Shown piece by piece: positions 13,132-20,324 of a stretch of DNA of 37,521 nt. This stretch comes from an uncultured bacterium. Its GTDB lineage: Bacteria; Cyanobacteriota; Vampirovibrionia; Gastranaerophilales; Gastranaerophilaceae. The position numbers and the translations under genes were made by a program. The DNA is taken from positions 1 through 37,521 of the forward strand of contig CASEVT010000067.1 of assembly GCA_949291445.1 (NCBI GenBank), read 5' to 3'. The notes under the pieces were generated by a model. It was not told the origin of the DNA, ran no database searches, and saw only the letters and a list, made by a program, of their open reading frames with translations. Position 1 is the first letter of the stretch. Each line of letters starts with the position of its first letter.

Positions 13132-13305
13132 TTAAATAATATCTTCAGGCAAATAAATTTGAATAATATCCAGTTTATTTCTTATTTGTTCATAGGAATT
13201 AGCGCCTGAAACAGCGTTTTGGTACTCACGCACAACGGATATAATATCGTCAGTAGACATTCTAATCATTCTGCGCCCGTACAAATTTTCCATAATTTCT
13301 GCCAT
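13132..13305 (-). CDS. Small uncharacterised protein, 57 residues
   Basis: The frame encodes MAEIMENLYGRRMIRMSTDD followed by a helical stretch (IISVVREYQNAVSG, SYEQIRNKLDIIQIYLP). Amino acid use looks protein-like: charged and hydrophobic residues alternate as in amphipathic helices, unlike the Phe/Lys runs from random AT-rich DNA. A TATACT box lies about 20 nt before the start and a weak AGG sits 6 nt ahead. No family recognised; soluble; no signal peptide. It fills most of an otherwise empty gap of 527 bp between the coiled-coil gene and the radical-SAM-like gene. Confidence 0.5.
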   Translation of the reverse strand: MAEIMENLYGRRMIRMSTDDIISVVREYQNAVSGANSYEQIRNKLDIIQIYLPEDII

Positions 13306-13580
13306 ATACAACCTACACTTTCTAGTATATTAAACGGCAAAAAAAATTTTTTCTTTATTAAGATCATTGATCTGGCTTAGAAAACGACATTCAAATTAGA
13401 AAAAGCATGCAATATAAGAGTACAAAACGCAGAAGGAGTAGCGCAAATCTTAAGAAATAAGACATCAACAACTAGAGTAGTTAACTTGGACAAATACAAC
13501 TGAGAATATATTTATACATCTGTGTAATTTATTAACTTTATCTTTGCAACTAGAATTTCAATAAAATCAAAGGAGGAAAA
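13306..13580. other. Intergenic stretch with a possible gene relic at 13381-13503
   Basis: No intact gene. On the plus strand, codons 13381-13503 read KTTFKLEKACNIRVQNAEGV then AQILRNKTSTTRVVNLDKYN and stop at TGA. This looks protein-like but has no start codon, and a TAG (13378-13380) precedes it; the same frame upstream of that TAG reads FFIKIIDLA. It may be the tail of a decayed gene. The last ~60 bp hold the leader of the next gene with its strong AAAGGAGG site. Confidence 0.3.
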
Positions 13581-14447
13581 ATGTATAACTCAATAATACA
13601 GGCAGAATGCGTAACATTGAAAGAACTGAATCACTTATTCATCGACCTAGAATACAAAAAAGTGTTAAACAAAAATCTAAATCTATACAGAAGTCGAAGT
13701 TACAATCAAAAAAATAAAAAATACCTTCAATACGACGAAGTTAAAGAAGCGCTAAAACTGATGGATAAATCGAAATTAAAATACATCTATCTGGTAGGAA
13801 AAGATCCTCTTACGCACAGTGATTTTAACCAGATATTAAGGCTAAGTTTGACCTACGCACCGGTAACAATATATTCAGACGGGAACTGCATAAATGACAA
13901 AAAAGCAAGATTTCTGAAACGAGTGGAAGACGAAGGAACTAATGAAATAATATTCAAAATATTTATCAATCACTATGATGAAAAAATAAACGATGAAAGA
14001 GCCACAAGAGGCTCATACAGAAAAGCAATCCATGCAATTAACTCGCTTAACAAATACGGATTTAATCCGATACTGGCAATTTTAAAATCAAAAGAAGATA
14101 ATGAAACTGAACTAAAAGAAGGTTTTAAGGAGCTTGGAAAAAAGTTCAAGTTTGAAACAGAAGAAATAAATTTTTGTATAATCCCACAAGTCAAATCGAA
14201 CAATACAGAAGAGCCAACCCAACCCGAAAATACAAACTATGAAAACATAGAGCTTGACTGCAAAAGCAGCAGGCTATTGACCAAAAACGGAGTTTACACT
14301 TGTCCGATACTGGCAAATGATTACAGGGGACGCAGCGGAGCAAACCTAAAAGACTTTAGTAAAAAATGCTACCTTGAGACAGCAGAATGCAGACAATGTA
14401 TCGCTCATGCAACGAACATTTTCACGAATAACTGGATAACAGACTGA
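13581..14447 (+). CDS. Radical-SAM-like protein lacking the CxxxCxxC cluster motif
   Basis: A 288-residue protein with the order of a radical-SAM barrel plus a C-terminal cysteine region. The strand and helix pattern KYLQYDEVKEALKLMD, YIYLVGKDPLTHSDFNQILR, VTIYSDGNCINDKKARFLKRV and GSYRKAIHAINSLNKYGFNPI matches typical family text, where VGKDP would be TGGEP. But the three cysteines that hold the 4Fe-4S/SAM cluster are gone: the expected site (about residues 28-41) reads VLNKNLNLYRSRSY. Five cysteines remain near the C-terminus (C227, C241, C263, C270, C273), spaced like a SPASM-type auxiliary cluster. The frame is intact and has an ideal AAAGGAGG site, so it is probably expressed. A non-catalytic binding or partner role is inferred. 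It ends directly against the convergent small gene at 14448. Confidence 0.75.
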   Translation: MYNSIIQAECVTLKELNHLFIDLEYKKVLNKNLNLYRSRSYNQKNKKYLQYDEVKEALKLMDKSKLKYIYLVGKDPLTHSDFNQILRLSLTYAPVTIYSDGNCINDKKARFLKRVEDEGTNEIIFKIFINHYDEKINDERATRGSYRKAIHAINSLNKYGFNPILAILKSKEDNETELKEGFKELGKKFKFETEEINFCIIPQVKSNNTEEPTQPENTNYENIELDCKSSRLLTKNGVYTCPILANDYRGRSGANLKDFSKKCYLETAECRQCIAHATNIFTNNWITD

Positions 14448-14708
14448 TTAGTTATTCGGGTTAAAAAATTCGCTAATCATATTCCATATGCCGTTTGAAG
14501 AAGACTCTTCCTTTGAAAGACAGCTGATAACTTCAGTTTCAGGATCATAATTTTGTTCCCAGATATTAGCGGACTTCACAGAAGAATTTTCAGAACCGTT
14601 AACAGCAGAAGGACTTTGCGGTACATAGGCACCTCTTGTCTTACTAACATAATTGTATTTTGCAAACGGATTGTAGTAGTTTGCCGGATTTATCATGTTG
14701 CTATTCAT
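14448..14708 (-). CDS. Small uncharacterised Asn/Ser-rich protein, 86 residues
   Basis: Not recognised. It opens MNSNMINPANYYNPFAKYNY, then VPQSPSAVNGSENSSV, and ends IWNMISEFFNPNN. Composition suggests a largely disordered chain with a short amphipathic C-terminal helix and one cysteine. No clear ribosome site precedes the ATG. Its stop abuts the stop of the radical-SAM-like gene. Its N-terminal Asn/Tyr-rich style resembles other unknown proteins in this window. Whether it is a real gene rests on composition and close packing. Confidence 0.55.
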   Translation of the reverse strand: MNSNMINPANYYNPFAKYNYVSKTRGAYVPQSPSAVNGSENSSVKSANIWEQNYDPETEVISCLSKEESSSNGIWNMISEFFNPNN

Positions 14709-18206: not shown

Positions 18207-19106
18207 ATGAACACAGACCTATCTTTTAGTAATTACGAAATAAAGAAAAAAATAAGAACAGTAAAAGTCGGCTCCGTAAAAATAGGAGATGATTCGTCAT
18301 TCCCATTTCTAATAGAAAACGCCAATACAACGAAGCCGATTTTTGCAATAGAAATTCCATTTTTGCAAGACAATATCTATCCGGATTTTCTATATGAGCA
18401 ATATGGCACAAAGGATTTCTACAAAATACTTGATAAACTGCAAGAAACAAAAGCAGATGTAATCTCGATAAAGTTTAATACACAGGAAGAAGGACTCGAT
18501 ACCCTGCTGCAGATGCTACCTGCGGCATTTAGCCGTATAAACGAAATAAACAAAAAACGACTGATTTTAAGAGGAGCAAACAACACCCAAATCGACAAAA
18601 TACTCCTGCCCAAACTGTCAGCACTGGCGAAAAACGAGTCAATAATAGCCTTTGCAGATGAGTTCAGCTACGAAGAGATTGTGCCATCCATAGTAGAAAG
18701 AAATCATATACTGGTTTTAAGATCGCCAATAGACATAAATCTGGCAAAGGAATTGAATATACTATGTACAGACAAAGGACTTTCACCTGACAGAATCATA
18801 ATCGATCCTGATATGGGAGGACTGGGATACGGAATAGAATACGGTTACAGCATTATAGAAAGGATCAAGCAGGCAGGATTTGACGGAGACACAATGTTAA
18901 ACATGCCAATAGCTGCATTCATAGGCGAAGAGTCATACAAGGCAAAAGAAGCAAAAAGTGATAAATTTGACAAAAACTGGGGAGATTTTAACCAGAGAGC
19001 AAAACTCTGGGAGCTATCTGCCGCATCAGCAATTGTAACAGCAGGAGCAAACCTTATAGTTGTGTGGAATACCGAAACAATAGACACTTTGAAAGAGATT
19101 ATATAA
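18207..19106 (+). CDS. acsD: Corrinoid iron-sulfur protein, small (delta) subunit, AcsD/CdhD-like
   Basis: A 299-residue TIM-barrel protein of the acetyl-CoA synthase delta family. Diagnostic text includes VKVGSVKIGDDSSFPFL at the start, IDPDMGGLGYGIEYGYSIIERI in the middle, and PIAAFIGEESYKAKEA then WELSAASAIVTAGANLIVVW near the end. With AcsC it forms the heterodimer that carries a cobamide; the delta barrel caps the corrinoid during methyl transfer. The acsC ATG follows its stop with no gap, as expected for a 1:1 complex. No acsA, acsB or acsE lies in the window, so the normal Wood-Ljungdahl context is missing. The start ATG coincides with the predicted transcription start. Confidence 0.88.
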   Translation: MNTDLSFSNYEIKKKIRTVKVGSVKIGDDSSFPFLIENANTTKPIFAIEIPFLQDNIYPDFLYEQYGTKDFYKILDKLQETKADVISIKFNTQEEGLDTLLQMLPAAFSRINEINKKRLILRGANNTQIDKILLPKLSALAKNESIIAFADEFSYEEIVPSIVERNHILVLRSPIDINLAKELNILCTDKGLSPDRIIIDPDMGGLGYGIEYGYSIIERIKQAGFDGDTMLNMPIAAFIGEESYKAKEAKSDKFDKNWGDFNQRAKLWELSAASAIVTAGANLIVVWNTETIDTLKEII

Positions 19107-20324
19107 ATGGATTTAACAGGACTACAAATATTCAAATATCTTCCTGCAGCAAAAAAAGCTGCAGAATCTAATTGTAAAAAATGCGGATATCCAACCTGTA
19201 TGGCATTTGCACTAAAACTTGCAAAAAAGCAAGCAGATATTGAAAAATGCCCATTTGTCCCCCAAGAACTTACAGAAAAATTCATAGAATCAACAAAGGT
19301 ACAACAACACGAAATAGAAATTTCTGAAAACCTGAAGACAGGCGGCGAAAATGTCATGTTCCGTCACGACAAAACATTTGTAAACAGAACAGTTTTAGCG
19401 ATTAAGCTTGATACAAAGGACAAAGATTTCGAAAGCAAACTTGATGAAATTAAAAATTTTAATATAACAAGAGTAGGCGAAACATTCAAAATTGATGCAA
19501 TCTGGCTTGAAAACGCGACAGAACAAGCTATAGAAAAAATAAACCCCATCCCTATCCTAAACTCGCAAAATGCGAAGTACAAAATAATATCAGGCAGCAC
19601 AATTGAAGAACTTGCACAAAACTCAGCAACCTCAGATGCAAAACAGAAAATTCTAAACCTAAACATAGACAAAAAATCAACAGCACAAGTAATAGAAGAG
19701 CTCACACAAATAAGAAGACAAGCAGTGATTAATCGCTATGAACCGCTTACATACCCTGTTTTAGTAAAATTAACAGACAAAGAATCAAGCCTGAACAGAA
19801 CCTGCGCGCTGGCATCAATGCTAATATGCAGATATGCAAATGTAATAGTCTTAGACAATTTTAATCCTGCACTTCTGAGCACACTGCTAACACTCAGACA
19901 AAACATTTACACAAACCCCCAAAAACCGCTTCAAGTAGAATCGAAAGTTTATGAGTTTAACGAGCCGGATGAAAATTCCATTGTGCTTATGACGACAAAT
20001 TTTGCACTAACATATTTTGCGGTTGCAAATGAGCTGGAATCTATGCCATTCAGCTCATATTTAATAGTTACACCCTCAGACGGAATGAGCGTTCTAACCG
20101 CTTGGTCGGCAGATAAGTTTAATGCGCAAATAGTTGCAAAAATGATGTCTGAAATAAAGCTTGAGGAAAAAGTAAAGAACAAAGAAATAATAATTCCGGG
20201 ACTGCTGTCGCACATGAAAGAAGAATTGGAAGAAGCGCTTCCGCAATGGAAAATTGTTGTAGGAACGATAGAAGCTGTACAACTCTACGACTTCATAAAA
20301 AACAGAGAACAAGACAGCTACTAA
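19107..20324 (+). CDS. acsC: Corrinoid iron-sulfur protein, large (gamma) subunit, AcsC/CdhE-like
   Basis: A 405-residue protein. The N-terminal cluster domain keeps all four ligands, C23-x2-C26-x4-C31-x16-C48 (NCKKCGYPTCMAFALKLAKK), which holds a 4Fe-4S cluster used to reactivate oxidised cobalamin. A central barrel follows, then a C-terminal corrinoid-binding region (MTTNFALTYFAVANELES, VTPSDGMSVLTAWSADKF, EIIIPGLLSHMKEELEE). Moorella AcsC is about 446 residues, so this one is somewhat short, mainly in the middle. The retained ligands argue for a working methyl carrier. The methyl donor and acceptor are unknown here; a methionine-forming role like that described for Dehalococcoides is a possibility. 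Its TAA stop overlaps the tmk stop. Confidence 0.88.
   Translation: MDLTGLQIFKYLPAAKKAAESNCKKCGYPTCMAFALKLAKKQADIEKCPFVPQELTEKFIESTKVQQHEIEISENLKTGGENVMFRHDKTFVNRTVLAIKLDTKDKDFESKLDEIKNFNITRVGETFKIDAIWLENATEQAIEKINPIPILNSQNAKYKIISGSTIEELAQNSATSDAKQKILNLNIDKKSTAQVIEELTQIRRQAVINRYEPLTYPVLVKLTDKESSLNRTCALASMLICRYANVIVLDNFNPALLSTLLTLRQNIYTNPQKPLQVESKVYEFNEPDENSIVLMTTNFALTYFAVANELESMPFSSYLIVTPSDGMSVLTAWSADKFNAQIVAKMMSEIKLEEKVKNKEIIIPGLLSHMKEELEEALPQWKIVVGTIEAVQLYDFIKNREQDSY

Follow-up and report, generated by a model that had tools for sequence, protein, structure and literature searches.

We report that a protein of 288 amino acids from an uncultured bacterium of the order Gastranaerophilales (genus g1, family f1) retains the barrel of a radical SAM enzyme and a C-terminal four-cysteine site, although every radical-cluster and SAM-contact motif tested has been lost. 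The gene lies at 13581-14447 on the + strand of the window, that is, of the whole 37,521-nucleotide stretch of DNA analyzed. The same losses are found in 30 distinct orthologues that form a single clade, referred to here as the inactive clade; orthologues with intact motifs are called active. The explanation we prefer, and consider probable though well short of certain, is a natural conversion in which a radical SAM enzyme became a non-radical protein that carries an auxiliary Fe-S (or metal) site and acts by binding or regulation. Very probably, the protein of the inactive clade has taken on a new, non-radical job.

Results

The reading frame begins with ATG and was assigned from its Pfam match, family genomes, dN/dS, and fold matches. 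Pfam Radical_SAM (PF04055) matched the protein at 1.1e-8 (35.9 bits, cut-off 29.5), with the match starting at profile position 21, so that the cysteine loop is missing from it. Two AF2 models made from the clade's own sequences had mean pLDDT values of 63.9 and 66.6, with the barrel mostly at 75-90. For both models the first structure matches were radical SAM proteins (BlsE, SkfB, MoaA, anSMEcpe, and NifB), and the top Foldseek and VIA matches were also radical SAM structures (VIA Z 9-9.5). Because these came first, the original prediction was right to read a radical-SAM fold from the sequence, and the check that it proposed, structure prediction, did not bring up another fold. Both the profile and the models indicate the partial (beta/alpha)6 barrel of radical SAM enzymes. 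Sequence matches to solved structures (beta-lactamase, CD8) had E values of 0.036 and worse and were taken as chance.

By fold and motif spacing, the protein is placed beside the twitch radical SAM enzymes. In NCBIfam, the window protein and its relatives, active and inactive, all matched NF049973 (Rv1681 family) best, at 38 to 80 bits; the window protein itself scored 38.1 bits against a curated cut-off of 380, which leaves it outside that family. Its matches to Rv1681 and SPASM families in NCBIfam were weak and below cut-off. TIGR04347 did not match the window protein, and active orthologues scored at most 49 bits where the cut-off is 525. Since the defining catalytic features fail in the window protein, as detailed below, classifying it among the radical SAM enzymes would be a mistake.

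The gene is present as a single copy in 183 of 191 genomes of the family and is core to the order Gastranaerophilales, where 113 of the 117 sampled genomes, from seven families, carry one copy. A search of 69 genomes from other orders of the class gave no match at a threshold of 1e-20, and no relative was found on plasmids. Two near-complete genomes of the order (G036 and G193, 99%) are without any match to the gene, indicating that it is dispensable at times. The orthologue alignment comprised 127 distinct sequences: 96 of the active type, the 30 of the inactive clade, and one further sequence, L075. Both CxxxCxxC and G[GA]EP are present in the 96, which include every sequence of the six other families and most genera. 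Given intact motifs in all six of those families, we conclude that the active form is ancestral.

The inactive clade consists of genera g1, g6, and g33 or their close relatives and was recovered with support of 100/100 and a stem of 1.61. Identity is 60-80% within the clade and about 45% between inactive and active orthologues. In a tree of PilMN, an independent gene, the same three genera again form one clade (support 1.000, stem 0.58), and thus one vertical loss explains all three. L075, from the only sampled genome of genus g31 (G031, match on the - strand), is also without CxxxCxxC, reading VDLRKKRP there, and keeps E75 and P76 (GTEP). It sits on a very long branch and shares 1 of about 27 new residues of the inactive clade. 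An AU test did not reject a single origin for this loss and that of the main clade (p 0.228). Despite this, the near absence of clade-new residues favors independence, and G031 is probably a second, independent loss, although a genome that is 63% complete and alone in its genus carries little weight.

In the inactive clade, the loss extends well beyond the cluster cysteines. SAM contacts were placed by spacing onto SkfB (C117/121/124, GGE160-162, Ser211, and Arg223), in which the GGE motif and the Ser and Arg of the ribose motif contact SAM, Arg223 at its carboxylate and ribose (PMC6231123), and the spacing of these motifs in active orthologues agrees with SkfB. Among active orthologues, C28, C32, C35, and E75 are present in 100%, S128 in 94%, and R141 in 98%; in the inactive clade all of these are lost. 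The former radical-SAM cluster loop (residues 25-50, 13653-13730, +) has V28, N32, and L35 in place of the cysteines, and CxxxCxxC was found in none of the 30 members of the clade. The former GGEP SAM-binding motif (residues 73-76, 13797-13808, +), for which the SkfB role is known (PMC6231123), is now GKDP, with GKNS, GKNA, or GKDC as its counterparts in relatives. Position 128 (13962-13964, +), the ribose-motif Ser that corresponds by spacing to SkfB Ser211, is Phe here, and the Arg at position 141 (14001-14003, +), which corresponds to SkfB Arg223, is gone. In addition, N100 of active orthologues has become D. The replacement of CxxxCxxC and the change of GGEP to GKDP had both been noted in the original prediction; the alignment bears this out and adds that neither the GGE motif nor the Ser and Arg of the ribose motif remain. 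An active orthologue or paralogue was not found elsewhere in the genome of the window protein, although at least 13 further radical SAM genes with the cysteine motif are present there.

The emptied loop has been rebuilt. Throughout the inactive clade it carries the invariant basic motif YRSRSFNQKNKKYLQ, in the form YRSRS(F/Y)N(Q/H)K, and its mean net charge is +6.5, compared to +2.9 in active orthologues. It is also the slowest-evolving region of the protein, with the lowest pN (0.058) of the five regions compared in the clade. We think that a partner protein or an anionic ligand most likely docks at the basic loop; what is bound there is not told by loop conservation, and this counts against the conversion. 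The residues that are invariant or nearly so and new to the clade comprise C10, Y25, K27, R37, S38, R39, N42, Y48, Q50, D62, D100, C103, and others. Kept by active and inactive proteins alike are H79, N83, R87, N105, K107, K108, E134, D138, R231, G237, D247, R249, and G253. Thus the SAM site was given up in its entirety and remodeled at its entrance, with the auxiliary module rigidly held.

The new cysteines raise the question of whether the protein is still a radical or SAM enzyme whose ligands have migrated, for example to C10, C103, and C263. C10 occurs in 30/30 and C103 in 29/30 members of the inactive clade, versus 11% and 0% of active orthologues, and a review of pseudoenzymes raises the possibility that catalytic residues migrate (PMC10211241). 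However, the GGE Glu, the ribose Ser, and the SAM Arg were lost in the same clade, which leaves no known SAM contact, and cysteines at two or three scattered positions do not make a known radical cluster site. We therefore consider migration of the ligands quite improbable.

Several observations indicate that the gene is maintained for a function. A strong Shine-Dalgarno sequence, AGGAGG, lies upstream of the start at 13571-13576 (+), and an SD-like sequence, mostly GGAGG and in a few cases degenerate, precedes the start in all 30 members of the clade, in line with the excellent translation signals claimed earlier. The reading frames are intact in all 30 sequences, and every one of the 16 genomes sampled from the inactive genera has retained the gene. 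The dN/dS ratios within the clade ranged from 0.066 to 0.116 (median 0.084, 17 comparable pairs), compared to 0.068 for active pairs; because dS is high (0.6-2), these ratios are approximate. The original prediction had proposed asking whether close relatives share the loss under purifying selection, and they do, across three genera and at a dN/dS near 0.08. It had also held that relatives with an intact CxxxCxxC would make this a single decayed copy. More distant orthologues do have the motif; nevertheless, the loss is conserved across three genera, so this is no lone decayed copy.

Loss of the catalytic residues, in a draft genome of 134 contigs, would be what one expects of a decaying copy or an assembly artefact that has no function. 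This explanation is already refuted by intact frames in 30 distinct sequences from independent genomes, together with the low dN/dS, full retention, and SD-like sites throughout, and we give it practically no credence. A pattern common to 30 distinct sequences also excludes chance.

The C-terminal part of the protein (residues 225-288, 14253-14444, +) is a putative twitch-like auxiliary-cluster module. C227, C241, C270, and C273 are invariant in 127/127 orthologues, active and inactive alike, and each of the 126 sequences in which the spacing was measured showed CX13C-X28-CX2C (13/28/2). The original prediction had listed C227, C241, C263, C270, and C273 as a retained set. Four of these are indeed ancestral; C263 (14367-14369, +) is instead an extra cysteine specific to the inactive clade, present in 87% of its members and 3% of active orthologues. 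The broader claim, that the auxiliary region was kept when the main cluster was lost, stands, since the auxiliary-cluster cysteines persist though the SAM motifs do not. One auxiliary Fe-S cluster is probably still bound at this site. Some features of the module weigh against the conversion: it is of low confidence in both AF2 models, Pfam gave no SPASM match, and CX9GX3C-X28-CX2C, the invariant form in the 126 sequences, falls one residue short of the twitch consensus C-X9-15-G-X4-C ... C-X2-C (GX3C, not GX4C).

Four cysteines can also bind zinc, and the CX13C...CX2C pattern fits this metal, so that the protein could be a plain binding protein with a structural zinc (or other metal) and no Fe-S cluster. 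The organisms are anaerobic gut lineages, which argues against zinc. So does the occurrence of the same pattern and spacing in the 96 orthologues that still have the radical cluster motif, where a twitch four-Cys [4Fe-4S] cluster is the natural reading, as in BtrN, whose auxiliary [4Fe-4S] cluster is fully ligated by four cysteines (PMC6231123). On balance, we regard a zinc site as unlikely.

If an Fe-S cluster is present, the protein might instead carry electrons for some other enzyme, possibly a radical SAM enzyme, with the barrel as only a docking surface. The invariance and fixed spacing of the four auxiliary cysteines are consistent with such a role, the other cysteine-motif radical SAM genes of the genome would be possible partners, and radical SAM auxiliary clusters can mediate electron transfer between molecules, as with PapB (PMC10470005). 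However, fully ligated auxiliary clusters of the BtrN type lie below -660 mV (PMC9012708), making them poor carriers, and the slowest-evolving part of the protein is the rebuilt loop rather than the cluster module. An electron carrier seems to us doubtful, if by a shade less so than a zinc site, and we continue to favor a converted protein that binds or regulates.

The genomic neighborhood was compared between active and inactive loci. Inactive loci have the gene on its own, transcribed divergently from a small family-wide gene for 57 amino acids (13135-13305, - strand, in the window). The loci compared revealed no conserved operon neighbor, partner, or substrate that is particular to the inactive clade, which counts against both the conversion and the electron carrier. 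The 57-amino-acid protein is conserved but has no Pfam match, is present in 94/117 Gastranaerophilaceae genomes, and is divergent from the pseudo-radical-SAM gene only in some genera. A role as precursor peptide or dedicated partner was considered for it and rejected, because its gene occurs across the family and in most genera is located elsewhere. Convergent with the gene is an ORF of 86 amino acids (14448-14708, -), which has no Pfam match and within the genus was seen only here and in L031.

In many active genomes, including those of families f2, f3, and f4, the gene lies 3' to PilO/PilMN genes and is mostly convergent with them; inactive genomes keep PilMN at another place. Given this orientation and the separate location of PilMN, the type IV pilus was not accepted as the ancestral pathway and is kept as a lead only. 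At five inactive loci inspected, there was no replacement radical SAM gene beside PilO. In one subgroup of f1, the active gene is downstream of a ComF-like gene, a name that is our own reading of the sequence, and of a gene for a 109-amino-acid protein. The latter (L060, 2587-2913, +, and relatives) lies between the ComF-like gene and the active radical SAM gene at about 40 active loci, has no Pfam match, and is a candidate partner of the active enzyme. Elsewhere in the window, at 18207-20324 (+), two adjacent genes match CdhD (corrinoid-protein subunits of CO dehydrogenase/acetyl-CoA synthase), and the second of them also has an FeS domain. Unless the organism has a Wood-Ljungdahl-type or methyl-transfer pathway, one would not expect such genes in a Gastranaerophilales genome from the gut.

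Discussion

We propose that the protein descends from an order-wide, single-copy twitch-domain radical SAM enzyme, and that the common ancestor of the three genera gave up SAM binding and radical chemistry altogether while the barrel and the four-cysteine site stayed. The emptied cluster loop became the strongly basic loop, which most likely meets an anionic ligand or a partner protein, and the four-cysteine site probably carries one Fe-S cluster as a structural or redox-sensing element. Such a protein would work through binding, in the role of a regulator or scaffold. Its job could be a non-catalytic one that the ancestor already had beside catalysis, or a new one.

A bolder proposal, to which we assign somewhat less than an even chance, concerns the whole order: non-catalytic, Fe-S-dependent sensing or scaffolding may always have been the indispensable part of this gene, with one clade, and perhaps G031 in its turn, having discarded the radical half and remade the SAM site into a basic loop for ligand binding. 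If true, this would supply a natural before-and-after pair, with an auxiliary cluster working without a radical SAM cluster. In SPASM and twitch proteins the role of the auxiliary Fe-S cluster is normally confounded with that of the radical cluster; here evolution has removed both the radical cluster and the SAM site but left the auxiliary cysteines and their spacing in place, and a comparison of inactive with active orthologues would tell whether the auxiliary site has its own function. For annotation pipelines, matches above the Radical_SAM cut-off can be non-radical proteins. The gene may also point to a core process of Gastranaerophilales not yet known.

The idea of the original prediction that such a protein would be a new type of scaffold, chaperone, or regulator is too strong, because a haloarchaeal pseudo-SAM/SPASM family, TIGR04347, is already named in NCBIfam. 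It is a precedent for an rSAM/SPASM-type protein that presumably, judging from the family name, has no radical cluster. It belongs to a different phylum and, as far as scored, is not the same family, so the losses arose separately. NF049973 (Rv1681), the best NCBIfam match, is not the family of the window protein either, given a score so far under its cut-off. A limited literature search found no papers on radical SAM pseudoenzymes.

Compared to the twitch enzymes BtrN, MoaA, and SkfB, the window protein is alike in its barrel fold, and its C-terminal four-cysteine pattern is nearest to the fully ligated [4Fe-4S] site of BtrN. It differs in that the cluster cysteines, the GGE Glu, and the ribose Ser and Arg are absent, in its length of only 288 amino acids, and in its rebuilt basic loop. 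E. coli QueE, a regulator of cell division, is a precedent for a radical SAM protein with a function independent of catalysis, as its catalytically dead R27A variant still regulates division (PMC11142719). QueE keeps its catalytic residues, unlike the window protein. Further precedents from the laboratory are the BtrN C16A/C20A/C23A and MoaA C24S/C28S/C31S variants, in which the three radical-cluster cysteines are gone, the radical cluster is absent, and the auxiliary cluster is kept (PMC9012708). Those variants were engineered, whereas the loss in the window protein is natural, clade-wide, and under selection.
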